Shown: positions 1,342 through 13,885 of the stretch, piece by piece
Layout: every line of letters begins with the position of its first letter
Numbering within the stretch: position 1 is the stretch's first letter
Assembly: GCA_030698575.1 (NCBI GenBank)
Contig: JAUYMQ010000162.1
Coordinates: 1 to 13,949 of the forward strand
Origin: Deltaproteobacteria bacterium
Lineage (GTDB): Bacteria > JAUYMQ01
Direction of reading: 5' to 3'
Length of the DNA: 13,949 bases
Translations under genes and position numbers: made by a program
The notes under the pieces: generated by a model
Told to the model about the DNA's origin: nothing
Seen by the model: only the letters and a program-made list of their open reading frames with translations
Databases searched by the model: none

Positions 1342-2078
1342 ACGGGGACGCAGAGAAGACGAGCGTACTCTTGCACTCTGCGCCCAAGCGGGCGCCCCGG
1401 TGGGGGGTTGTCCTGATTCTATTCCTGGTCGTGGGCCTGATTCAGGCGGAGGTGGACCGCAGCGCGCCCGGGAACGACGTTCCGGTTCATATGCTCTACG
1501 TACCCTCGGGCGCGTTCCTGAAACAGAGCGCCCTCGGCTACGAGCAGGCCTGGGCCGATCTGCTCTGGTTCCGGACGATTGGCTACTACGCAGACCAGGT
1601 GACGGATAAGGGGAAGTTCGACTACCTCTACCACATGCTTGACATCATCACGACGCTCGACCCGAAGTGGCTCTACCCGCATCTGTTCGGGGGCATCACG
1701 CTCTCCCTGGAGCTGAATCGCCCCGATCTCGCGAACCAGCTGCTCGAAAAGGCGCTCTCCGAACATCCGGACGACTGGAAGGTGCCGTTTCTGATCGGCT
1801 TCAACGCTTACTTCGGCATGGGAGACCCCGCGACGGCCGCCAACTACATCGAGCGGGCCTCCCGCCTTCCGCGTTCGCCCAACTACCTGAAGGGCTTCGC
1901 CTCCCGGCTTCACGTCATGGGCGGCGGCAAGGATCGAGCGCTCCAGTTTCTGAAGGAGGTCATCCAGCAGACGGAGGATCCCGCTCTCAGGGAGCAACTC
2001 GAGAAGCGATACGAGGACATTCTCCACGGCCGGCTCGCCGGTCCTGCGGGGAACGTGAAAAGGGGAGGGGCGGGTTGA
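1338..2078 (+). CDS. Membrane-anchored TPR protein, PilG-like position
   Basis: This 246-aa protein has a basic N-terminus, one membrane anchor (about residues 22-38) and then an extracytoplasmic helical-repeat domain. Residues 54-84 carry the block 'YVPSGAFLKQSALGYEQAW' followed by ADLLWFRTIGYY, which I recognise as typical of a delta-proteobacterial family found beside ABC-2 transporters. The remainder reads as TPR-like helices (LFGGITLSLELNRPDLANQL; FGMGDPATAANYIERASRLP). The start ATG overlaps the upstream stop and has GAGAAGG a few bases before it. The stop overlaps the ABC ATPase start by one base (TGATG). Its place directly before an ABC ATPase, a permease and pilD matches pilG of Myxococcus xanthus, an accessory gene needed for pilus assembly. 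That assignment rests on gene order, not on a recognised PilG signature. Confidence 0.88.
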   Translation: MNGDAEKTSVLLHSAPKRAPRWGVVLILFLVVGLIQAEVDRSAPGNDVPVHMLYVPSGAFLKQSALGYEQAWADLLWFRTIGYYADQVTDKGKFDYLYHMLDIITTLDPKWLYPHLFGGITLSLELNRPDLANQLLEKALSEHPDDWKVPFLIGFNAYFGMGDPATAANYIERASRLPRSPNYLKGFASRLHVMGGGKDRALQFLKEVIQQTEDPALREQLEKRYEDILHGRLAGPAGNVKRGGAG

Positions 2079-3037
2079 TGGTCGCACTGAAGGTCGAGAA
2101 TCTGGTCAAGGATTTCAAGCGTTCCATCACGCTCCGGAAGGTCCGCGTGGTGGACGGGCTGAATCTCGAGATCCGCCAGGGGGAGACCTTCGGGTTCCTG
2201 GGGCCGAACGGCGCGGGCAAGACGACGACCCTCAAGTTGATCAACGGGCTGTTGCATCCCACCTCCGGCAGCATCCGGATCTTCGGTCAGGATCATCGAA
2301 ACGTCGCCGTGAAGGGGCGGGTGGGCTTCCTGCCGGAGAATCCCTACTTCTACGACTACCTGACGGCCGAGGAGTTCCTCGACTTCTATGCGCAGCTCTT
2401 CGGGATAAGGCGCGCCGACCGCAGGGTACGGGTGCGGCGCCTCCTGGAGCGAGTCGGCCTCGCGGCGCGCGCCGCCGAGCCGCTCCGCAAGTTCTCCAAG
2501 GGGATGACGCAGCGGCTGGGCATGGCGCAGGCGCTGATCAACGAGCCCGAACTGGTGATCCTCGATGAGCCGATGTCGGGGCTCGATCCGATCGGGCGGA
2601 GGGACGTGAGGAACATCATCGTGGAACTGAAGCGGGAGGGGCGGACGGTGTTCTTCAGCTCCCATCTCATTCCCGATGTCGAGATGATCTGCGATCGGGT
2701 GGGCATACTGGTGAGCGGGCGGCTCAGCGAGCAGGCCGATCTCCACCAGCGGCTCGAGATGACGAGCCCCGCCAGTGATTTGCGCGTTTCGGGAATCTCC
2801 GAGGAGACCTTCGAGCGCCTGGACGCCCTCTCGATCAGAACCGTCGTCCGCGGCCCGGAAATACTGGCGGAAGTCCCCGGCGACGGCAGCGTCGAGAAGC
2901 TCATCGACCTGGTGAGAGCGGACGGAGGCCGGATCATCTCGATCGTGCCCAAGCGCGAATCGCTCGAGTCGATCTTCCTGCGCGAGGCCGCGCCGGAGTG
3001 CACGGAAAGCTCCGAACTGGAGGTAGATAGATTTTGA
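2078..3037 (+). CDS. pilH: ABC-2 type transporter ATP-binding protein (PilH-like)
   Basis: This is a 319-aa cytoplasmic ATPase subunit. It has Walker A GPNGAGKT (residues 42-49), signature FSKGM (139-143) in place of LSGGQ, Walker B LVILDEP (159-165, catalytic E164) and H-loop SSH (194-196). The Q-loop position reads 'LPENPYFYDYLT', with Glu in place of Gln, which is common in this branch. Residues from about 225 on form the accessory C-terminal domain usual for ABC-2 exporters. The open frame extends upstream, but ATG 2078 is the start: it follows GGGGAGGGG (2062-2070) with a 7-nt spacer and overlaps the upstream stop. It pairs with the permease that overlaps its 3' end. In M. xanthus, PilH is an ABC ATPase homologue required for pilus-dependent motility and lies in the same order before pilI and pilD. 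Its transported substrate is not known from sequence. Confidence 0.95.
   Translation: MVALKVENLVKDFKRSITLRKVRVVDGLNLEIRQGETFGFLGPNGAGKTTTLKLINGLLHPTSGSIRIFGQDHRNVAVKGRVGFLPENPYFYDYLTAEEFLDFYAQLFGIRRADRRVRVRRLLERVGLAARAAEPLRKFSKGMTQRLGMAQALINEPELVILDEPMSGLDPIGRRDVRNIIVELKREGRTVFFSSHLIPDVEMICDRVGILVSGRLSEQADLHQRLEMTSPASDLRVSGISEETFERLDALSIRTVVRGPEILAEVPGDGSVEKLIDLVRADGGRIISIVPKRESLESIFLREAAPECTESSELEVDRF
3019..3023 (+). promoter_or_regulatory. Ribosome binding site selecting a TTG start
   Basis: GGAGG lies 10 nt before TTG 3034. The alternative in-frame GTG at 3040 would be 16 nt away, so the TTG that overlaps the ATPase stop (TTGA) is the better start for the permease. Confidence 0.65.
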
Positions 3038-3795
3038 AGGTGCAGGCGATAGCCGTTAACACATTTCGCGAGGCCGTCCGGGACAAGGTTCTCTACAGCC
3101 TCCTGTTCTTCGCCATCGCCCTCATCGGGGCATCGGTGGTGCTGAACCGGCTGGCCATCGGACAGCAGACGAAAATTATCACTGATCTCGGCCTTGCGAG
3201 CATCTCGATCTTCGGCACGCTGATCGCCGCGTTTGTCGGCATAGGCCTGGTCTCGAAGGAGATCGAGCGGCGAACGATCTTCACTATCGTCTCCAAACCC
3301 GTGAGCCGCGGCTGCTTCATCCTGGGGAAGTATCTGGGGCTCGTGCTGACACTGGCCGTCGAGGTCGCCATCATGTCGGCCTGCTTCCTCACAATGCTCG
3401 CGATCTATGCGGACGATCTCGTGATCCCGGCGCTCTGGGCCATCGGGCTCATCTTCATGGAGCTTTCCGTTGTAACGGCGGTGGCCATCTTCTTTTCCAG
3501 CTTCTCCACGGCTTTCCTTTCCGGACTCTTCACTATGGCTGTGTGGCTGATTGGCCACTTCACGCCGGACCTGCGTGTCTTCGGCGAGCGATCAGGGACC
3601 GCGATGCGCTGGCTCACGGAGTTCCTTTACTACGCACTGCCGAATCTGAGGAACTTCAACATCAAGGAGCAGGTGGTACACGGGATTCCGGTTGCGGCCG
3701 AGTTCATGGCACTCTCGGTAGTCTACGGCCTGGTCTATGTGTCGGTTCTCCTGGTGGTCGCGACGCTGGTATTCGAGCGGAGAGATTTCGTATGA
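3034..3795 (+). CDS. pilI: ABC-2 type transporter permease (PilI-like)
   Basis: This 253-aa integral inner-membrane protein has about six predicted spans (near residues 20-37, 54-73, 100-122, 130-153, 158-175 and 226-247). The cytoplasmic segment 'SKEIERRTIFTIVSKPVSR' (74-92) after the second span is typical of ABC-2/NosY-type permeases, as is the N-terminal amphipathic stretch 'NTFREAVRDKVLY'. It starts at TTG, overlapping the ATPase stop by 4 nt, and ends in an ATGA overlap with the next gene, so subunit stoichiometry is probably set by translational coupling. With the preceding ATPase it forms the membrane pore of the transporter. Its position corresponds to pilI of the M. xanthus pilGHI cluster. 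The symbol is given on synteny and domain type, and is less certain than the family assignment. Confidence 0.92.
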   Translation: MKVQAIAVNTFREAVRDKVLYSLLFFAIALIGASVVLNRLAIGQQTKIITDLGLASISIFGTLIAAFVGIGLVSKEIERRTIFTIVSKPVSRGCFILGKYLGLVLTLAVEVAIMSACFLTMLAIYADDLVIPALWAIGLIFMELSVVTAVAIFFSSFSTAFLSGLFTMAVWLIGHFTPDLRVFGERSGTAMRWLTEFLYYALPNLRNFNIKEQVVHGIPVAAEFMALSVVYGLVYVSVLLVVATLVFERRDFV

Positions 3796-4453: not shown

Positions 4454-5227
4454 ATGGCCTGGCCGTTCGTGACTGTTGCCGCCATTTTCGGCGCGATCAT
4501 CGGAAGCTTTCTGAATGTCGTCATTGCGAGGCTCCCGGCCGACGAGTCCATTGTGCGCCCGGGGTCGCGGTGCCCCGGATGCGGTCGCCCGATTGCCTCG
4601 CACGACAACATTCCAGTTCTCTCCTATTTGCTGCTGAGGGGCCGCTGCAGAAACTGCCGGACGCGCATCTCGATCCGCTACCCGCTGGTCGAGCTGCTTA
4701 CGGCGGCCGCCTTCGCGTTCTCGTACCACTGGTTCGGACCGACGCTGGATCTCGCCGCGGCGCTCGTTCTTCTGTCGGCGCTCATCGCGATCACCTTCAT
4801 TGATCTCGATCATCGCATCATTCCGAACGAGATCAGTCTTCCCGGAATCCCGGTGGGCTTCCTCTTCGGCTCGATGCGCCCGTCGGTCGGATTCGCCGAC
4901 GCCGGCCTGGGGGTCCTTCTCGGCGGAGGCGCGTTGTTCGCCCTGGCCTACGGCTACGAGAAGATTCGCGGGCGGGAAGGAATGGGAATGGGCGACGTCA
5001 AGCTTCTGGCGATGATCGGCGGCTTCATGGGGTGGCAGGGAGTCCTGGTGACCCTCGTGGTGGGTTCCTTCGTGGGATCGGCGGTCGGCATCGCGTTCAT
5101 GATCCGGGAGCGCGGGACCCTGCAGTACGCCGTTCCCTTCGGGCCCTTCCTGGCGCTGGGGGCCGCGTTTTACCTCTTCTGGGGTGCGGAGCTCTTCGAA
5201 TGGTACCTTCAGGCGACTCACCTGTAA
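4454..5227 (+). CDS. pilD: Type IV prepilin peptidase / N-methyltransferase
   Basis: This 257-aa polytopic inner-membrane aspartic protease (peptidase A24 family) cleaves prepilin leaders after Gly and methylates the new N-terminus. The N-terminal region has the GSFLNVVI(A)R motif (17-26) and a zinc-type four-cysteine cluster, C40-x2-C43 and C65-x2-C68, typical of bifunctional PilD enzymes. The catalytic aspartates lie in 'TFIDLDHRIIPN' (D117/D119) and in the G-x-G-D motif 'GMGMGDVKL' (D181). Its length is normal for the family. It ends inside the histidine kinase gene (28-nt overlap), so peptidase and regulators are probably co-expressed. Its substrates are plausibly the four pilin-like proteins encoded 3-8 kb downstream, all of which carry Gly-plus-hydrophobic-helix cleavage sites. 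Confidence 0.97.
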   Translation: MAWPFVTVAAIFGAIIGSFLNVVIARLPADESIVRPGSRCPGCGRPIASHDNIPVLSYLLLRGRCRNCRTRISIRYPLVELLTAAAFAFSYHWFGPTLDLAAALVLLSALIAITFIDLDHRIIPNEISLPGIPVGFLFGSMRPSVGFADAGLGVLLGGGALFALAYGYEKIRGREGMGMGDVKLLAMIGGFMGWQGVLVTLVVGSFVGSAVGIAFMIRERGTLQYAVPFGPFLALGAAFYLFWGAELFEWYLQATHL

Positions 5228-6870
5228 GCGTCTGGTCGAGTCTTCGCACGGAGATCGTGCTCAAGGTCATCGTGCTCACAGTCACGACCGTGCTGCTCGT
5301 GTCGGTTGTCGCTTTCAAGATTCTCGAGCTGGAGGTATTTCGCCAGCGCCTCGACGCCGCGCGGCAGGTCATCGTGACCCTGCACCACGAGCTGACCAAC
5401 CGGGATCCGATGGGAGGCGCCTCCCAAGCGGAGAACCTGGCCGAGGCCCGGCGGATCACGACGCAGCTCCTGCGGGCGGGCAATCTCCAGTCGCTCTATC
5501 TCGTTGATCCCGCCGGCCGTGTGATCGCCCACTCCGATCCCGAGCGCCTGAAGGAGTTTGCCCGCGATCCGCTTGTGGCGCGGGCGCTCGAGACGGGCGC
5601 CACGGTCACGACGCTGCGCGATAGTCCCGCCTGGTTCCTCGGGATGCTGACAAACCTCACGGTGGACGAGGACGTTCAGATCGCCATGCCGCTGGCCACA
5701 CCGTCCGGAGAGACCATCGTGGGCGTGGCGGTGGTCCCCCTGGGAGATGTGAAGCGGTCGGTGACGCAGAGCCTCAAGGTTCTCATCGCCTTCATTGCCC
5801 TTGATGCCTTCATCGTCGTGATCTTCGGAAGCTGGTTTCTCTCACGCGCGCTCGTGCGCCCGCTCGACCACCTTTCCTCGGCAGCGAATGCGATTGCGGG
5901 AGGGAATCTCCGCCAGAAGGTCGGCGCAGGGAAACGAAACGAGATCGGGGCCCTGGGAAGAGCCTTCAACCTCATGACGGACAGACTGCGGGAGAGCAGT
6001 GATCGCATCGATGAGCAGATAGAACGCCTGCAGGAGGCCAACGCCGAGTTGGCGCGCGCGCAGGCGGATCTTATTCGGAGCGAGAAGCTGGCCTCGGTCG
6101 GGCGCCTGGCGGCGGGTGTGGCGCACGAGGTGGGCAACCCTCTCAGCTCGATCCTCGGGCTGACCGATATTCTCCTGAAGGGCGGCGGCACCGGATTCGA
6201 GCTGCCCGACGAAGCGCGGGAACATGCGGCGCAGATCCGCAACGAGACCGAGCGGATCCACCGGATCATCCGCCGGCTTCTCGACTTCTCCCGCCCTTCA
6301 CAAGCGGAGATTCTCGAGGTGAGCGTGAACGACGTTGTCCAGGAAACGCTGGCCCTGACGGAGCCAATGGCGGATCTGTGGGAGGTGAGGGTGCGCCTCG
6401 ATCTGGACCGTTCGGCGCCGAAGGCCATGACCGATACGGCGCTGCTGCAGCAGGCGCTCATGAACCTGATTGTCAACGCCGCCCAGGCGATGCCGGACGG
6501 CGGAACGCTCTCGATCTCGAGCCGGGCCATTGTCTTCGAAGGCGCGGAAAGGGCGTTGGCCCGGCGTGCCGACGATCCCCCCGCGGCCGACTACGGCGTG
6601 CGGCGGCGATCCGGGAGCGGGCTGCGGCCCGGCGATGCCGCCGTTGAGCTGGTAGTGGCTGACACGGGACACGGAATCCCGCCCGAGCTGCTCCCCCACG
6701 TGTTCGACCCCTTCGTCACGACGAAGGAGCCGGGGCGGGGTACGGGCCTCGGTCTCGCCGTCGTACACAGCATCGTCGACATGCTTCAGGGCAAGGTGCG
6801 CGTGAAAAGCGATGCGGGCAAGGGCGCGGTCTTCACGCTGATGCTGCCGGGTGTGAGGGAGACCTCATGA
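5200..6870 (+). CDS. Membrane sensor histidine kinase (cache-like sensor, HAMP, HisKA, HATPase)
   Basis: This 556-aa kinase has TM1 (about 19-39), an extracytoplasmic sensor of about 150 residues and TM2 (about 194-214). These are followed by HAMP (about 216-266), a coiled-coil linker, DHp with the phospho-acceptor in 'AAGVAHEVGNPLSS' (H309), and the ATPase domain. ATPase motifs are the N-box 'MNLIVNAAQAM' (N426), G1 'DTGHGIP' (D488), F-box 'FDPFVTTKEPG' and G2 GTGLGL (514-519). The sensor contains 'LYLVDPAGRVIAHSDP' and 'GETIVGVAVVPLGDV', as in Cache-type domains. ATG 5200 is chosen over the longer open frame because GGAG (5188-5191) precedes it by 8 nt; it overlaps pilD by 28 nt. The stop overlaps the response regulator start (ATGA). 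The likely role is as cognate kinase of that regulator. Canonical PilS has six TM segments, so this is PilS-like by context, not by architecture. Confidence 0.95.
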   Translation: MVPSGDSPVSVWSSLRTEIVLKVIVLTVTTVLLVSVVAFKILELEVFRQRLDAARQVIVTLHHELTNRDPMGGASQAENLAEARRITTQLLRAGNLQSLYLVDPAGRVIAHSDPERLKEFARDPLVARALETGATVTTLRDSPAWFLGMLTNLTVDEDVQIAMPLATPSGETIVGVAVVPLGDVKRSVTQSLKVLIAFIALDAFIVVIFGSWFLSRALVRPLDHLSSAANAIAGGNLRQKVGAGKRNEIGALGRAFNLMTDRLRESSDRIDEQIERLQEANAELARAQADLIRSEKLASVGRLAAGVAHEVGNPLSSILGLTDILLKGGGTGFELPDEAREHAAQIRNETERIHRIIRRLLDFSRPSQAEILEVSVNDVVQETLALTEPMADLWEVRVRLDLDRSAPKAMTDTALLQQALMNLIVNAAQAMPDGGTLSISSRAIVFEGAERALARRADDPPAADYGVRRRSGSGLRPGDAAVELVVADTGHGIPPELLPHVFDPFVTTKEPGRGTGLGLAVVHSIVDMLQGKVRVKSDAGKGAVFTLMLPGVRETS

Positions 6871-8219
6871 GAGGCGCCAGGATCCTGCTCGTTGACGACG
6901 AGGAGAATTTTCGCCGCTCGCTGGCGATCATGCTCCACCAGGCGGGCTACGAGGTGGACGGCCTGGCCGACGGACAGGAGGCCCTTCGTTGCCTGGCGGG
7001 CGAGATCTACGATTTCGTAATCACCGATCTTCGCATGCCGGGCATCGATGGCATGGCGTTGCTGGAAGAAGTCAAACGCATCCATCCCGAGTCGCTCGTA
7101 GTGATGATGTCGGCCTACGGCTCGTCGGATCTGGCCGTCGAGGCGGTCAAACGGGGCGCAACCGACTACATCGCAAAACCGTTTTCCTCTGATGAGCTCC
7201 TCCTGCTGCTCCGCAAAGCAGAGGAAAGGGAGCGGCTTCGCCGCGAGAACGTCCTCCTTCGACGCGAGGTCGACCGCCGCCACGGGAGCGACAGCCTGAT
7301 CGCGGAGAGTCCCGCCATGCGCGAGGTGCTGTCCATGGCCGGGAAGGTGGCGGACCACCGGACGACCGTTCTCGTCACCGGCGAGAGCGGCTGTGGCAAG
7401 GAGATGGTCGCGCGGGCCATCCATCAGATGAGCCTCCGCCGCGAGGGCCCCTTCGTGCCGCTGAACTGCGGGGCGATTCCGGAGAATCTCCTCGAGAGCG
7501 AGCTGTTCGGCTACGTGCGCGGCGCCTTTACCGACGCGGGGCGCAACAAGCGAGGGCTTTTCGAGGAGAGCGACGGGGGGACCATTTTTCTCGACGAGAT
7601 CGGCGACCTCCAGCCCTCGCTTCAGGTGAAGCTCCTTCGCGTGCTCCAGGAAGGAGAGGTGAGGCGCCTCGGCGATACGCGGACCATCCCCGTGGATGTT
7701 CGGACCATCGCAGCCACGTCGAAGAACCTCGACGACGAGATGCGAGAGGGGCGGTTCCGGGAAGATCTCTTCTACCGGCTCAACGTGGTGCGCATCGAAA
7801 TCCCGCCGCTCCGCGAGCGGCGGGAGGATATCGCCCCCCTGGCCGGGCACTTCCTTCGTTATCACGCCGAGCGGCTCGGGCGCTCCGTGGCGTCCATCGC
7901 GCCGGAGGCGATGTCGGCGCTCGTCGAGGCGCCCTGGCCGGGCAACGTGCGGGAGCTGGAGAACGCCATCGAACGCGCGGTGGTACTGGCCGAGGGGGGG
8001 CGTGTCGAGGCGGCCCTGCTGCCGATCGCTCCCGGCGCATCCCGGACGGAAACCACTCCATCCGAGCTCTCCATCAAGCGCGCCACGGCGCGCATCGAGG
8101 CGGAGCTCATCCGCCAGGCGCTCGCCCGCACCCGCGGCAACCGGACCCAGGCCTCACGCCTGCTCGAGATCAGCCACCGGGCGCTCCTCTACAAGCTGAA
8201 GCGCTACGGCCTCGACTGA
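6867..8219 (+). CDS. Sigma-54-dependent response regulator, NtrC family (PilR-like)
   Basis: This 450-aa cytoplasmic transcription activator has a receiver domain (about 4-120) with the acidic pair D10/D11, phospho-acceptor D54 ('VITDLRMPG') and the conserved Lys in 'IAKPF'. Its AAA+ domain (about 145-380) has Walker A GESGCGKE (172-179), the sigma-54 contact loop GAFTDA (219-224, a natural variant of GAFTGA) and Walker B 'TIFLDEIGD' (D243/E244). Other AAA+ motifs are 'FREDLFYRLNVV' and 'WPGNVREL'. A Fis-type helix-turn-helix occupies about 421-450 ('RGNRTQASRLLEISHRALLY'). The start ATG overlaps the kinase stop, with GAGGGAG 5 nt upstream. It is very likely phosphorylated by the adjacent kinase and acts on sigma-54 promoters. 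One such promoter lies 131 bp downstream of its stop, before the minor-pilin operon, which supports a PilR-like role. Other NtrC-family paralogues cannot be ruled out by sequence alone. Confidence 0.96.
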   Translation: MRGARILLVDDEENFRRSLAIMLHQAGYEVDGLADGQEALRCLAGEIYDFVITDLRMPGIDGMALLEEVKRIHPESLVVMMSAYGSSDLAVEAVKRGATDYIAKPFSSDELLLLLRKAEERERLRRENVLLRREVDRRHGSDSLIAESPAMREVLSMAGKVADHRTTVLVTGESGCGKEMVARAIHQMSLRREGPFVPLNCGAIPENLLESELFGYVRGAFTDAGRNKRGLFEESDGGTIFLDEIGDLQPSLQVKLLRVLQEGEVRRLGDTRTIPVDVRTIAATSKNLDDEMREGRFREDLFYRLNVVRIEIPPLRERREDIAPLAGHFLRYHAERLGRSVASIAPEAMSALVEAPWPGNVRELENAIERAVVLAEGGRVEAALLPIAPGASRTETTPSELSIKRATARIEAELIRQALARTRGNRTQASRLLEISHRALLYKLKRYGLD

Positions 8220-8418: not shown

Positions 8419-8913
8419 ATGAGAAAGCAGGCCGGAGGGGAGAGCGGGCTCACGCTGCTGGAACTGGCCGTCACGCTGGCGGTGATCGGGCTCATAGCCG
8501 CCATCGCTGTGCCGAGCATGGGCAAGGTCATTCCGCACGTGAAGCTCAACAGCGCGGTGTCGCAGCTGACCAACGATCTGAACATCGCCCGCTATCGCGG
8601 CATTTCGGGGAATTTCAAGACGCGCGTCGTCTTCAATACGGGCGCCAGCACCTACACCCGCTGGATCGACAAGAACCGGAACGGCGCCTTCGACGCAGGT
8701 GAGGAAGACATTCTTAACCGAACCATGCCAAGCGGCGTGACCTTCGTCACGGCGAGCACCTCTCCCCACGTGGGTTTCGATCCCGTGGGCACGGCCGAGG
8801 ACGGAACCGCCAGCGTCACCGATATCCCGGTCACCCTGGCGGGGTCGCAGAACCCGCCGGAAACGCGGCAGATCACGGTCAACCGGGCGATGGGTCTGGT
8901 GAAGCTCAACTGA
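8419..8913 (+). CDS. GspH/FimT-like minor pseudopilin
   Basis: This is a 164-aa prepilin with a 10-residue leader ending in G10, then L11-T-L-L-E15 (Glu at +5) and the hydrophobic helix 'LAVTLAVIGLIAAIAVP'. The globular part fits GspH/FimT: a short N-terminal helix with 'LTNDLNIARYRGIS', a beta-rich core, and a C-terminal strand 'RQITVNRAMGLVKLN' typical of this family. Residues 84-95 (DKNRNGAFDAGE) fit an EF-hand-like calcium loop. It is the first gene of the sigma-54-driven operon; AGAGGGAG (8403-8410) lies 8 nt before the ATG. In T4P systems FimT/FimU-type minor pilins prime pilus assembly in the inner membrane and end up near the pilus tip, which is the likely role here. Confidence 0.93.
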   Translation: MRKQAGGESGLTLLELAVTLAVIGLIAAIAVPSMGKVIPHVKLNSAVSQLTNDLNIARYRGISGNFKTRVVFNTGASTYTRWIDKNRNGAFDAGEEDILNRTMPSGVTFVTASTSPHVGFDPVGTAEDGTASVTDIPVTLAGSQNPPETRQITVNRAMGLVKLN

Positions 8914-8930: not shown

Positions 8931-9407
8931 ATGCATCGGTTCACGGGAAGGAAAGGCACGAAGGGTTTCACGCTGATCGAGATGATGGTGGCGACCGTCG
9001 TTTTCGCCGTCGGCATGATCGGCATCCTGAAGCTCCTTCACACCGCTGTGGTTGCCAACCGCTACGCCAAGGACCTCAGCTCCGCGAACGCCATTATGCA
9101 GGAGCATCTCGAGATGGTCACGCGCGAGTCCTTCAACAGCGTTGTGAACGGCACCACGGGCGGGAGCCAGCCGTTCTTCGACAACGCCACCAACGGCGAC
9201 GTCACGGCCGCCGACGGGATCTTCACGCGGCAGTTGACGATGAACAACGTGACCTACACCGCGACGCTCCGGCGGCAGGCGGACTTGCCTCGGGCGAACA
9301 TCGACACCATCACCGGTACCGTCAGCTGGACGGACATGGGCGGCCGGGGGGTGGCGATGAAGCAGAAGGCGCGGACGGTCTCCTTCGTGACCTTCAGGAA
9401 CAGCTAG
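8931..9407 (+). CDS. pilV: PilV-like minor pilin
   Basis: This 158-aa prepilin has a basic 12-residue leader ending KG12, then F13-T-L-I-E17 (canonical Glu+5) and 'MMVATVVFAVGMIGILKLLH'. The GMIGILKLL run and the following 'ANAIMQEHLEMV' match the PilV pattern (AvGmlGl..l followed by AxxxAxxxxE). The C-terminal part is beta-rich and ends with 'KARTVSFVTFRNS'. The start follows AGGAG (8915-8919) and lies 17 nt after the pseudopilin stop. Its place between a FimT-like gene and pilW is the usual order of minor-pilin operons. It is predicted to be processed by PilD and to join the priming/tip complex. Confidence 0.9.
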   Translation: MHRFTGRKGTKGFTLIEMMVATVVFAVGMIGILKLLHTAVVANRYAKDLSSANAIMQEHLEMVTRESFNSVVNGTTGGSQPFFDNATNGDVTAADGIFTRQLTMNNVTYTATLRRQADLPRANIDTITGTVSWTDMGGRGVAMKQKARTVSFVTFRNS

Positions 9408-9439: not shown

Positions 9440-9444
9440 GGAGG
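9440..9444 (+). promoter_or_regulatory. Ribosome binding site deciding the PilW start
   Basis: GGAGG lies 5 nt before ATG 9450. The frame opens earlier at TTG 9420, but that codon has no comparable site. ATG 9450 is therefore preferred, giving a 36-residue prepilin leader. Confidence 0.75.
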
Positions 9445-9449
9445 AACTG

Positions 9450-12400
9450 ATGAACGGCGGAAAATCAAAGATCGGCAACGCCCAGGTCCCCGGTTCAGCC
9501 CAGTACGTCGGCGCGGCGGCGGCAGCCCCGCGGCGGCGCGGGTGGGGAAGGGGCGGGTTCACCCTGATCGAGCTGATGATCACCGTCGTCATCCTTTCGA
9601 TTGTCACCGCGGGTGTCTACCAGCTGTACCTCACGCAGTACCGGCAATCCATCAGCCAGGAGCTGCGCAGCGAGATGCTGCAGCGCGTGCGCGTTGCGAT
9701 GAGCGACATGACGCGAGAGATGCAGATGGCGGGGTTCAAGCCGCGAGTGGACGCCGTCAACACGGCTAGCTCGACCCAGCTTACCTGCGAGCTCCTGAAC
9801 AATCTCCTTCCGGCCCAGCCCGTGGGCTACACGAAGGATCGGCGGATCACCTACAGGTTCGACGCCGCGAACAAGCAGATCAAGAAGCGGGTCCAGGTCT
9901 GGAACACGACCGATCCGAATCCGGACAAGTTCACGAATACCGCTGAGGTCGTCTATCTCGACAGCATCACGAACTTGGGCTTCACCTACTTCGATAAGGC
10001 GGGCGCGGCCATGGCGACCCCGGTTGCGGCAGGGTCTCTCGGCGATATCCGGCGCATCGATGTGACGCTGACGGCAGAGACGAGCAAGATCGATCCGATC
10101 ACCAAGGACAAGCGGACGATCACGCTTGCCTCGCAGATCTACCCACGTAATTTGGGAATCGAGGAATCCACCCTGGACCAGACCTGCCCGGCGACGCCGA
10201 CGGGCCTCTCACCCACCGACCCCCAGGCCTGCGGGCAGATTGATCTCGCCTGGAACTCCAACGCGGAGGCCGACCTGGCGGGGTACCGGATTCACTACGG
10301 TGTGGCTCCGGGGCTCTATTCGGGGACCCTGACCGTGGGCGAGGTCACGAGCGCGACCCTGGATGGCCTGGCGAACAGCGTTACCCACTACATCGCGATC
10401 GGCTCCTTCGACGAATCGTCGAACTCCTGCGCACTCTCGGCCGAGGCGTCGGGGACCGGGCCGGGGGCGCCGGACAGCCGGCCAGATCCGGGTCTGCCCC
10501 AGAAGACCCTGAATCTCGACGCGACATCCTCTCCCGCCGGCGTCAATCTGACCTGGGCCAAGAACCAGGACAGCTACCCCGGTATCCGGCCGGACACCGA
10601 CGTCAACGTGATCGGCTACAACGTCTACCGCAGCACCGACAGCGGCTCGACCTACACGAAGATTGCCGACAAGGCGAGCGGCTCGAGCTATCTCGACGTT
10701 CCAGGGTCCAGCCTCTCCTGCAAGAAGCTCTGGTACAAGGTCGAGCCCGTGAACTGCCTCGATCTGGCGGGTCCGTTCTCGTCGGAGGTCTATGGCGACG
10801 GAAGCGGCCTCCCCACGGGCGTCAACGACGTTGACGTGCCCCAGAACGGCGTGACTTCGACCGCCGTGGTCGACAACACGATTCCTGCGCCGCCGAGCGG
10901 CCTGCTCTCGAAATCGGGCTATCAGCGGAACTTCCTGGTCTGGGACAATCCGAACGACACCGACTTCAGCCATACCGTTGTCCGCTACAGCACTTCCGGC
11001 TTCCCCTCGACGCCGATCGACGGAACGGCGGTCGAGAGCGCGCCCGGCGGGAACGGCCGCTTCGACGGCAACCCCGGCCAGACGATGACCTTCACGCACG
11101 ACGGCGGCGGTGTCACACCCAACCTCACCGTGAACACGACCTACTACTACACGATCTTCGCGTACGATCTTTGCGGGAACGTGAGCTCCGCCCAGGCCAG
11201 CGCCCAGACGGCCGCGGCCCAGTGCGGCGACGAGCCCTCGGGGCCCAGCAGCGGGCCGCCGCCGGCGCCCACGCTTCCGAATCCGTACTACACGAACTCC
11301 TGTGCGGCCAGCCAGGCGACGATCCAGTGGGATCTGGTCGACGACGGCTTTCCCGCGGGGATCTTCGACCTGGCCGGATACAACATCTACCGGGCCACGA
11401 ACAACCTCGCGGGCCCCTACACCAAGCAAAACGCATCGATCCTCTTCGGCGGCTATCCCGGCCTGCGCACCTACACCGATACGACCGTGGTGCCGGGCAA
11501 CACCTACTACTACAAGATCACGACGACCGACTGCGACTGGGAGGTCAACGGCGGCGTCAACGGCGGCGGCGAGAGCGTGGCCTCCAGCATCATCAAGGTC
11601 ACCCCGGGCGCCCTCATCCGGAGCGTGGCCAACCCGCAGGTTCTTTCGCGGGGCAACAGCCACGAGAAGGTGATCTTCTGGATCAAGAACGCGAAGGACG
11701 ATCCGCCGCAGACCTCGCTGGGGCAGATCCGGCTTGAGACGTTGACTGTCGAGTACGCGAACGCGCTGGTGCGCGTGGCCAAGGTCACCCTGCTGCATGA
11801 CATCAACGACTCGACTGACGACGAAGTGCTCTACAGCAACAGCTCGGCACCGGTCACGGCCGGTTCTGGCACGAACATCGCGCTCACGCCGGCGATACTC
11901 GACGGGCAGGTAGAAACCCCCGTGGAGGTCGAGTTCCGGACTGCGGGAGGGGCGGTTTCGGGCACGGTCGACATGCGCGCCGAAAGCATCCTGGCCACCT
12001 GGGGCTACGAGAACGTCGCAACGACGCTCGACGACTGCGATTCGGTGATGACCGTCAGGGTTCCCTTCAGCCCGGATGTCAAGGCGGTTGTGCAGGACAA
12101 GCCGTTCGCGCCGACGTCTTCGAGCCTCACGCCGGGCGTGATCACGGTGGCCAAGGACAACCATGTGAACGTGATTGCGACCGTGGCCGATCCGGATGCT
12201 GTGGGGATAACAAGTGCGAAGCTCTACTGGGCGGAGTCGAACAAGAGCGACTCGACTCCTCCCACCTCGGGCTGGAACGAGATCACCATGATCTCGCTCG
12301 GCGGCGGCATCTATGCTGCGGACGACAACCCGCTCGTGGGCGGCGACTCGCGCATTCCGGACGAGAACGACAAGCGCATCTGGTTCTACCTCATCGTGAC

Positions 12401-12473
12401 CGACGCGCTCGGCAACTTTGACCGATCGCCGGAGCCCGATCAGGGCGCCTTTGTCTACTACCAGAGCAACTAG
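9450..12473 (+). CDS. pilW: Giant PilW-like minor pilin with four fibronectin type III-like domains
   Basis: This protein has 1007 residues, whereas PilW proteins usually have about 200-350. A long Ala/Arg/Gly-rich leader ends at G36, then F37-T-L-I-E41 and 'LMITVVILSIVTAGVYQLYL'. 'MTREMQMAGFKPR' (about 87-99) is the PilW hallmark. After the pilin head (to about 240) come four FnIII-like domains at about 248-337, 350-448, 478-588 and 603-720. Each has strand motifs such as 'DLAGYRIHYG', 'VIGYNVYRS' and 'DLAGYNIYRA', and 'YYYTIFAYDLCGN' or 'YYYKITTTDCDW'. Residues about 721-880 form another beta-rich region, and 885-1007 an Ig-like terminal domain ('KLYWAESNKSD', 'IWFYLIVTDALGNFDRSPEP'). Eleven cysteines, several placed as strand-B/FG-loop pairs (for example C261/C327), suggest disulfide-stabilised surface domains. 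It is probably displayed at the pilus tip for adhesion or substrate binding (inference). Confidence 0.93.
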   Translation: MNGGKSKIGNAQVPGSAQYVGAAAAAPRRRGWGRGGFTLIELMITVVILSIVTAGVYQLYLTQYRQSISQELRSEMLQRVRVAMSDMTREMQMAGFKPRVDAVNTASSTQLTCELLNNLLPAQPVGYTKDRRITYRFDAANKQIKKRVQVWNTTDPNPDKFTNTAEVVYLDSITNLGFTYFDKAGAAMATPVAAGSLGDIRRIDVTLTAETSKIDPITKDKRTITLASQIYPRNLGIEESTLDQTCPATPTGLSPTDPQACGQIDLAWNSNAEADLAGYRIHYGVAPGLYSGTLTVGEVTSATLDGLANSVTHYIAIGSFDESSNSCALSAEASGTGPGAPDSRPDPGLPQKTLNLDATSSPAGVNLTWAKNQDSYPGIRPDTDVNVIGYNVYRSTDSGSTYTKIADKASGSSYLDVPGSSLSCKKLWYKVEPVNCLDLAGPFSSEVYGDGSGLPTGVNDVDVPQNGVTSTAVVDNTIPAPPSGLLSKSGYQRNFLVWDNPNDTDFSHTVVRYSTSGFPSTPIDGTAVESAPGGNGRFDGNPGQTMTFTHDGGGVTPNLTVNTTYYYTIFAYDLCGNVSSAQASAQTAAAQCGDEPSGPSSGPPPAPTLPNPYYTNSCAASQATIQWDLVDDGFPAGIFDLAGYNIYRATNNLAGPYTKQNASILFGGYPGLRTYTDTTVVPGNTYYYKITTTDCDWEVNGGVNGGGESVASSIIKVTPGALIRSVANPQVLSRGNSHEKVIFWIKNAKDDPPQTSLGQIRLETLTVEYANALVRVAKVTLLHDINDSTDDEVLYSNSSAPVTAGSGTNIALTPAILDGQVETPVEVEFRTAGGAVSGTVDMRAESILATWGYENVATTLDDCDSVMTVRVPFSPDVKAVVQDKPFAPTSSSLTPGVITVAKDNHVNVIATVADPDAVGITSAKLYWAESNKSDSTPPTSGWNEITMISLGGGIYAADDNPLVGGDSRIPDENDKRIWFYLIVTDALGNFDRSPEPDQGAFVYYQSN

Positions 12474-12535: not shown

Positions 12536-13825
12536 ATGAGCCCTCGTGAACAGAGAGTCACCCGCTGTGCGGCTCTCGATGGAGACCAGCCGGAAGGCGT
12601 GCGGCGCCCGGAGGGAAGGGCGGGGGGGCAGAGCCGCGGCCTGGCGGACGAGAGTGGCATCGCGCTCGTCATCACCCTCCTGATCCTGGTCACGCTGACC
12701 TTCATCGGGCTCGCGAGCTTCTTTAATTCGAGCACCGACGTCATGATCACGGGGAACCAGAAGGGCACCAGCCAGGCGCTCTACGTGGCCGAGGCGGGTA
12801 TCGCCGACATGATCGACGCGCTGAACAGCAACGGGGCCTACGCGCCGCCAACGCCTTACACGACTGCCTGGGCGCCGGCCGACGTGACCTCGACCGCCGG
12901 CGGCTTCAGCTATACCGTCCGGGTACGCCACAAGGTCGACACGGACGATTGCGACGGTGACAGCGTCACGGCCGAGGTGGTCCAGTACGACAAAGCCTGC
13001 TATCCGGGCAGCCCCATCCCTGCGGGCGGCGCCAGCGCCTATCCGGTCGAGGTGGTCACGTCGACAGCCACCACCGATCGCTATCACAACCAGACCGTGC
13101 TCGAGGTCACGAAGCAAAAGTTCACCTACAAGGTGACCGGCGCCCTGACGGCCCAGTCGAACGTCCAGCTCAACGGTAACATCACGGTGGACGGCAACAC
13201 CCACGACATCAACGGGAATCCCTCGGCCACGGCCTGCGGCGGCGCGCTGCCATCCATCTCCACGATCGTGGGCAAGACGGTCACAACGAGCGGCTCGCCC
13301 ACGACAACGCCGGCCGCCGACAACACCAAGGCCGACGCGGATCAGCCCGACACGCCCTGTGAAGCGCTCGGCCTGGCCGCCGATTGCGAGACCACGACGC
13401 TCGTCGACTACATCACGGCGGCCGCGAATGTGTCGCCGATGAGCGGCGACATCAAGTGGGTGCAGGGAAACTACGCGAGCGCCTGCCTCGGCGGCACCGG
13501 AATGCTGATCGTGCACACGCCGGGCTTCGATCCCAAGAAGTGCAACCCGGCCGATGCGGCCTACGATGTGGCCTGGTGCGCCGCGCACCCGCCGGCGAAC
13601 CTCGGGAACATCACGGGCAACTGCACCTTCAAGGGGCTCATCATCGCCGACAGCATCGACAAGCTGGCCGGGAGCGGCACGATTATCGGCGCGGTGATCT
13701 CCATGACCGAGATCCAGGCCGACAAGGTCGGCGCGGGAACGTTGACGCTCAAGTACTCCTGCGCCGCGCTCGACGAATTCGTCGGCGGCAAGATCAACCA
13801 CAAGCTCGCCTGGGAACGGAAGTAG
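12536..13825 (+). CDS. pilX: PilX-like minor pilin with large C-terminal domain
   Basis: This 429-aa protein has an unusually long, charged leader ending S40-G41, then I42-A-L-V-I-T and 'LLILVTLTFIGLASFF'. The lack of Glu at +5 is normal for PilX. The region 'MITGNQKGTSQALYVAEAGI' (ending at residue 89) is the PilX N-terminal signature (GN...AL..AEAGI). The remaining ~340 residues are polar, beta-rich and Thr/Asn/Asp-rich. They include a repeat-like stretch 'LTAQSNVQLNGNITVDGN' (204-221), found in large PilX-type proteins, and 'FKGLIIADSIDKLAGSGTII' near the C-terminus. Ten cysteines in the mature part suggest disulfides. It is the last gene before a strong terminator. It is predicted to be PilD-processed and to act with PilW and PilV in the pilus-priming/tip complex. 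No PilY1 gene follows within the window. Confidence 0.88.
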   Translation: MSPREQRVTRCAALDGDQPEGVRRPEGRAGGQSRGLADESGIALVITLLILVTLTFIGLASFFNSSTDVMITGNQKGTSQALYVAEAGIADMIDALNSNGAYAPPTPYTTAWAPADVTSTAGGFSYTVRVRHKVDTDDCDGDSVTAEVVQYDKACYPGSPIPAGGASAYPVEVVTSTATTDRYHNQTVLEVTKQKFTYKVTGALTAQSNVQLNGNITVDGNTHDINGNPSATACGGALPSISTIVGKTVTTSGSPTTTPAADNTKADADQPDTPCEALGLAADCETTTLVDYITAAANVSPMSGDIKWVQGNYASACLGGTGMLIVHTPGFDPKKCNPADAAYDVAWCAAHPPANLGNITGNCTFKGLIIADSIDKLAGSGTIIGAVISMTEIQADKVGAGTLTLKYSCAALDEFVGGKINHKLAWERK

Positions 13826-13857
13826 GGATCCGTCAGGGAATGAGCAGTCCTCAGGAG

Positions 13858-13885
13858 GGGCCCCGCGACGGCGGGGCCCTTTTTT
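13858..13885 (+). terminator. Strong intrinsic terminator of the minor-pilin operon
   Basis: The perfect 9-bp stem GGGCCCCGC / GCGGGGCCC (13858-13866 and 13871-13879) with tetraloop GACG is followed directly by six T residues (13880-13885). It lies 32 nt after the pilX stop and closes the operon. Confidence 0.94.

Follow-up and report, generated by a model that had tools for sequence, protein, structure and literature searches.

In diderm bacteria, PilY1 is considered to be the adhesin at the tip of type IVa pili. PilY1/PilC is a non-pilin protein with a C-terminal beta-propeller (PF05567). H-I-J-K pilin sets occur in both T2SS and type IVa pili, and many secreted glycosidases contain fibronectin type III (FnIII) domains. 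The minor pilins FimU/T, PilV, PilW and PilX make up, together with PilY1, the priming or tip complex of type IVa pili (PMC7541494; PMC10191384). Modelling indicates that PilX contacts PilY1 by strand complementation (PMC13190605). Moreover, a bulky C-terminal sfGFP on PilW3 abolished function in M. xanthus (PMC7541494). Modular pilins, including those with FnIII domains, are already known. Raynaud et al. (2021) surveyed 264 architectures, and FnIII (IPR003961) was among the 15 modules that are most commonly added (PMC8179133).

Here, we describe a PilW minor pilin of 1007 amino acids with a C-terminal array of domains (array PilW; 9450..12473), which is encoded in a stretch of 13,949 nucleotides (the window; contig JAUYMQ010000162.1) from a Deltaproteobacteria MAG. 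All features of the window given below lie on the forward strand. Like the modular pilins PilB and PilC of Streptococcus sanguinis, the protein consists of an N-terminal pilin and C-terminal non-pilus domains, and a location at the pilus tip is proposed for them as for the array PilW (PMC8179133). However, the best-studied modular pilins come from monoderm bacteria and carry one or two modules, whereas the arm described here has six domains and is borne by a core minor pilin, the PilW of a FimT-PilV-PilW-PilX set, in a genome that also encodes secretins; moreover, other phyla share the complete architecture. PilY1/PilC resembles the array PilW in its expected role, that of a big, modular adhesin which the same set of four minor pilins displays, but it is a non-pilin with a C-terminal beta-propeller, and the array PilW has no PF05567 match. 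In the ComZ/PilA2 competence cassette of Thermus thermophilus, a large tip pilin also stands beside ordinary minor pilins; ComZ binds DNA and has been proposed to sit at the tip (PMC6561018). There, ComZ has a beta-solenoid insertion as its big domain, whereas here PilW also bears a C-terminal FnIII arm. CofB of the type IVb pili of ETEC is likewise a minor pilin of large size, whose beta domains follow the pilin on its C-terminal side (PMC8179133), but it belongs to a type IVb system, acts as a trimeric adapter for a secreted adhesin and has no FnIII array. In the open-access literature, we found no report that combines PilW with FnIII or in which PilW replaces PilY1. Thus, what looks new is a core PilW carrier that is conserved across phyla, its distribution complementary to that of PilY1 and the coupled length of PilX.

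The PilW head and its C-terminal arm

The open reading frame starts with ATG, ends with TAG and has no internal stop. A Shine-Dalgarno sequence, GGAGG (9440..9444), lies 5 nt upstream of the start codon. Residues 1-36 (9450..9557) are assigned to the leader, with the N_methyl match beginning at residue 34. The prepilin site is a class III signal peptide, GRGG/FTLIELM, with Glu at +5, and Pfam N_methyl is matched with an E-value of 1.7e-7; the prepilin cleavage site is intact, as originally predicted. The pilin head comprises residues 37-240 (9558..10169), a helix (39-93) followed by beta strands. Residues 34-240 match the PilW-head profile end to end (A4 profile positions 2-198; E 9.2e-63, a value that is inflated because the window sequence itself is among the 19 profile rows). 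This profile is common to ordinary PilW proteins of 200-230 aa and to array-bearing ones, and its best PDB match is the type IV-like pilin TTHA1219 of Thermus (1.3e-5). In the full-length model, the pLDDT of the head is mostly 63-83 over residues 41-230, and lower in the loops. The full-length homology of the head and the position of the gene between those of PilV and PilX identify the protein as a PilW/PilJ core minor pilin, and the head is an ordinary one, in agreement with the prediction.

The frame was also predicted to continue unbroken from the head into an arm of about 770 residues. The GC3 of the gene is 0.84-0.92 throughout 9450 to ~12450, so no frameshift seam is visible, and DNA repeats inside the frame are trivial. 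Moreover, colinear relatives cross the same head-arm junction, and the continuity of head and arm was borne out. Searches with the single protein against Pfam, NCBIfam and PDB returned the pilin motif only and no fn3; orthologue profiles were needed to recognise the arm. Indeed, Pfam fn3 has no match in the window PilW or anywhere in its genome. Per-domain profiles were built from five to seven colinear proteins and searched against PDB chains. The profiles of D1, D2 and D4 matched solved FnIII chains: D1 (residues 241-340; 10170..10469) fibronectin (2.8e-19), D2 (341-460; 10470..10829) titin (2.1e-15) and the Fn3-like protein 3mpc (4.3e-8), and the FnIII-like domain D4 (600-722; 11247..11615) again 3mpc (4.8e-6). 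The profile match of D3 (468-592; 10851..11225) was weak (0.003), and this domain was assigned by its fold: modelled with 39 rows, it reached a mean pLDDT of 94.1, and the top PDB folds found by Foldseek were FnIII. The FnIII domain of chitinase A1 (1k85) was among the matches of the D1/D2 profiles and of the D3 fold search. D5 (722-882; 11613..12095) and D6 (875-1007; 12072..12470) are conserved in relatives and beta-rich in a low-confidence model, and their profiles gave no PDB sequence match. A full-length AF2 model from 4 rows had a mean pLDDT of 42.8 and was poor except for the head and, less so, D1, so that its Foldseek matches were set aside. No catalytic or carbohydrate-binding domain was recognised in the array PilW with Pfam.

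Four FnIII-like and two further domains, as predicted, were thus recovered past residue 240 by domain profiles and structure prediction, with D1, D2 and D4 assigned by profile and D3 by fold, although the protein stays below the Pfam fn3 cutoff. The relatives L056, L058, L060, L061, L062 and L076 pass this curated cutoff. As in modular pilins, a class III signal peptide with N_methyl is combined with C-terminal non-pilus domains, here FnIII by profile and fold. The regularities that had suggested a domain array hold in part. GYxxYR-like motifs are present in D1, D2 and D4 and absent from D3. The recurring cysteine near strand F or the FG loop is conserved in D2 (C436), D3 (C575) and D4 (C695), but that of D1 (C327) is not; in D2, Cys424 and Cys436 are invariant in seven relatives.

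The pilus cassette and its relatives

The array PilW belongs to a cassette with the gene order PilD-PilS-PilR-FimT-PilV-PilW-PilX. It begins with a PilD-type prepilin peptidase (4454..5227; Pfam A24_N_bact 1.9e-35, Peptidase_A24 1.5e-21), which is followed by a PilS-like sensor kinase with a putative start (5227..6870; HAMP, HisKA, HATPase_c) and a PilR-like sigma-54 response regulator (6867..8219; Response_reg, Sigma54_activat 1.4e-70, HTH_8). The FimT/GspH minor pilin (8419..8913; Pfam GspH 6.4e-8) and the PilV-like minor pilin (8931..9407; N_methyl 3.3e-8; NCBIfam type_IV_pilV 1.8e-6, below the cutoff) precede PilW. Downstream lies a long form of the minor pilin PilX (12536..13825; PilX_N 1.4e-8), which has 429 aa (405 aa in the comparison of cassettes given below). 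A strong hairpin with a U-tract (13853..13884; -27.7 kcal/mol, z -4.4 upon folding) begins 28 nt past the PilX stop codon and is likely to be the terminator that ends the operon; a consensus terminator scan did not list it. The contig stops 124 nt past PilX. The MAG is 91.6% complete and consists of 653 contigs, and its genes for PilM-Q, secretins and ATPases of the PilB/PilT type lie on other contigs. PilM-Q lie on contig C299, which starts ~285 nt before PilM and has no sequence overlap with the window, so that a gap remains there. Contig C571 bears a separate T2SS-like locus, which has J- and K-like pilins, an ATPase and a secretin of its own.

FimT, PilV and PilW also have sub-threshold NCBIfam matches to the Verru_Chthon cassette proteins D, B and C, respectively, which suggests that the Verru_Chthon cassettes of Verrucomicrobia may be related minor-pilin sets. 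Near-alike pilin genes of 169 and 167 aa with equal N_methyl scores were observed at L178 (G000:C253) and L179 (G000:C347); they reflect either duplication of a pilin or a fork in the assembly.

Relatives of the array PilW were sought in 386 genomes, which include no other member of the phylum of the window genome, and in a scan of named genomes. Scanning genome contigs with the single protein gave nothing, and an alignment-based scan recovered the relatives. L076, from a Deltaproteobacteria MAG, is a colinear full-length relative (residues 28-1005, 30% identity); its genes are arranged as in the window from PilD to PilX and then continue into PilM and onward. Further relatives are found in a Rokuibacteriota MAG (L077, on the same contig as G147/L056 and cut by the contig end), a Nitrospirae MAG (L078) and other families. 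This search for the PilW-FnIII fusion and its spread had been proposed together with the prediction. The order FimT-PilV-array PilW recurs in L056-L061, L066, L067 and L069, where it is mostly followed by PilX; in L062, L181 and L182, a PilX-like gene lies upstream of PilW. Elsewhere, the PilW slot holds arrays of Big_7/Big_13, Calx-beta, SdrD_B with FG-GAP or ConA-like domains. For instance, a ConA-like domain, matched under the Pfam cutoff, forms the C-terminal end of three relatives from one family. Since the same slot is filled in many lineages, the architecture is a recurring one and not a local oddity. The original prediction had stressed how demanding a pilin of about 1000 residues must be. 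The protein is indeed large, but array-bearing PilWs of about 650-1900 aa recur in many families and modular FnIII pilins were catalogued in 2021, which tempers the surprise.

The Big_13/Big_7 proteins L066 (G107; 1628 aa) and L069 (G372; 1927 aa) are among the largest array PilWs examined. In L059 (G315:C18), a stop codon (1 TAG within the match to the head) severs the N-terminal pilin helix from the listed frame, and the gene may thus be broken or mis-assembled. L189 (G207:C197) has an ordinary-length head (899-1525) followed by a separate FnIII-bearing frame of 642 aa (1525-3450); this is either an array PilW split in two or the result of a frameshift.

Distribution of PilY1 and length of PilX

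PilY1 was detected with one Pfam model, PF05567, which may miss diverged proteins, and in genomes that are mostly drafts. At an E-value of 0.001, it was present in 57 of the 386 genomes. No PF05567 match was obtained in the window PilW or in its genome, at the completeness given above. For the comparison of loci, array-bearing PilWs were defined as frames of at least 600 codons and the neighbourhood as 20 kb, both cut-offs being our own choice. Among complete heads, none of 17 array loci but 9 of 44 ordinary loci had PilY1 within 20 kb (p 0.051, a borderline value in the strictest test). With every listed head counted, the figures were 0 of 36 and 17 of 73 (p 0.0006), and with PilY1 anywhere in the genome and the best complete head taken as the one locus of each genome, 0 of 16 and 10 of 33 (p 0.02); the genomes in these counts are not phylogenetically independent, and the ordinary class may include T2SS or other pilins. 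PilW frames that adjoin PilY1 have 197-463 codons. PF05567 was also searched in seven of the 12 genomes of the phylum of G372 and in the genomes of L076, L077 and L078, with G025 as positive control, and no PilY1 was found in the genomes of L076-L078. Furthermore, PilX is followed by PilM in L069 and L076, and PilW by PilM in L181 and L182, with no PilY1-sized gene in between. Both arrangements occur in G240, where an ordinary PilW and a PilX of 182 aa stand beside a PilY1 of 2483 aa (L188), and another contig, on which PilY1 is absent, bears an array PilW and a pair of long PilX-like genes (L187). Many PilW-like loci have neither PilY1 nor an array, so that loci without PilY1 do not need an array.

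PilX has 396-704 aa in 16 array cassettes (the window, L057-L060, L062, L067-L069, L076, L078, L181-L184 and L187) and 107-240 aa in 15 PilY1 cassettes (Mann-Whitney p 2e-6). Because the cassettes were hand-picked, one per genome with the array cassette of G240 counted separately, and the comparison was made post hoc, this difference serves as a hypothesis for new genomes. A long PilX also accompanies an ordinary PilW in three more cassettes (in G214, one of those in G084 and one of those in G360), and the length of PilX may therefore track the absence of PilY1 as well as that of PilW does. In the PDB, the long-PilX profile has a single significant match, ComZ of Thermus (6qvi, 4.8e-6). The alignment is good only at profile positions 59-177, and ComZ carries the large beta-solenoid insertion. 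At L191 (G214:C53), two ordinary PilW genes have four PilX-like genes in their vicinity, all long and similar, and PilY1 was not found.

Proposed role of the array PilW

The array PilW, together with the long PilX, probably serves as the tip adhesin in a type IVa pilus that lacks PilY1. This reading fits the order of the genes and the homology, and PilY1 is apparently absent. As PilY1 was not found at array loci, it is probably the arm that grips in its place. PilD would process the array PilW, and its head would dock with FimT, PilV and PilX in the priming or tip complex. The arm would traverse the secretin, project from the pilus tip and bind a surface or polymer. Together with the long ComZ-like PilX, which would cap the tip complex, it would assume the adhesive tip role of PilY1, and the adhesin would thus belong covalently to the priming pilins. 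That a long arm can pass is not to be taken for granted, because sfGFP on PilW3 blocks function in M. xanthus; conceivably, a narrow FnIII string may traverse where one globular add-on plus PilY1 does not. More tentatively, these loci could represent a distinct cross-phylum class of type IVa pilus tips, in which an exchangeable PilW array and a long ComZ-like PilX cap exclude PilY1, perhaps because the secretin or the tip cannot hold both.

The array PilW might also be a tip adhesin unrelated to the loss of PilY1, its arm being an accessory and PilY1 being diverged, unlinked or hidden in assembly gaps. PF05567 is the sole PilY1 model, many ordinary PilW loci also give no PilY1 match, and the fragmented window genome has its contig end right after PilX. 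However, PilY1 is missing within 20 kb of all 36 listed array loci and from all 16 array genomes, no gene of its size precedes PilM in L069, L076, L181 and L182, a strong putative terminator follows PilX in the window, and the size of PilX shifts in step, which makes this explanation rather unlikely. The arm could instead be a substrate-capture fibre for polysaccharide, cellulose, chitin or DNA, and not an adhesin for surface attachment, with retraction bringing the substrate to the cell. FnIII domains are frequent in secreted glycosidases, 1k85 is among the matches and three relatives of one family have the sub-cutoff ConA-like C-terminal domain; ComZ, the PDB match of the long PilX, binds DNA (PMC6561018). 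But the array PilW has no recognised catalytic or carbohydrate-binding domain and no PDB sequence matches D5 or D6, and we consider a capture function unlikely.

The weak NCBIfam gspJ match (3.3e-4) and the H-I-J-K sets common to T2SS and type IVa pili would agree with a periplasmic GspJ-like pseudopilin of T2SS type that recruits a secreted substrate. This assignment was rejected as very improbable, given the separate T2SS-like locus on C571 with its own J/K-like pilins, ATPase and secretin and the cassette context of PilD-PilS-PilR, which in L069 and L076 leads into PilM and the following type IVa pilus genes. A fusion of two neighbouring genes by a missed stop or an assembly error has almost no probability left: nothing was found in its favour, GC3 is constant over the frame, and L076, L077, L057 and L058 contradict it, with colinear relatives in other phyla crossing the same junction.

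Many genomes with FimT-PilV-PilW-PilX cassettes give no PilY1 match. If the proposed adhesive tip of array PilW and long PilX is correct, the two proteins would explain surface grip in lineages without PilY1, and gene length would be a simple marker for classing tip complexes from sequence. Moreover, whether the secretin passes one long tip appendage but not two would become testable.
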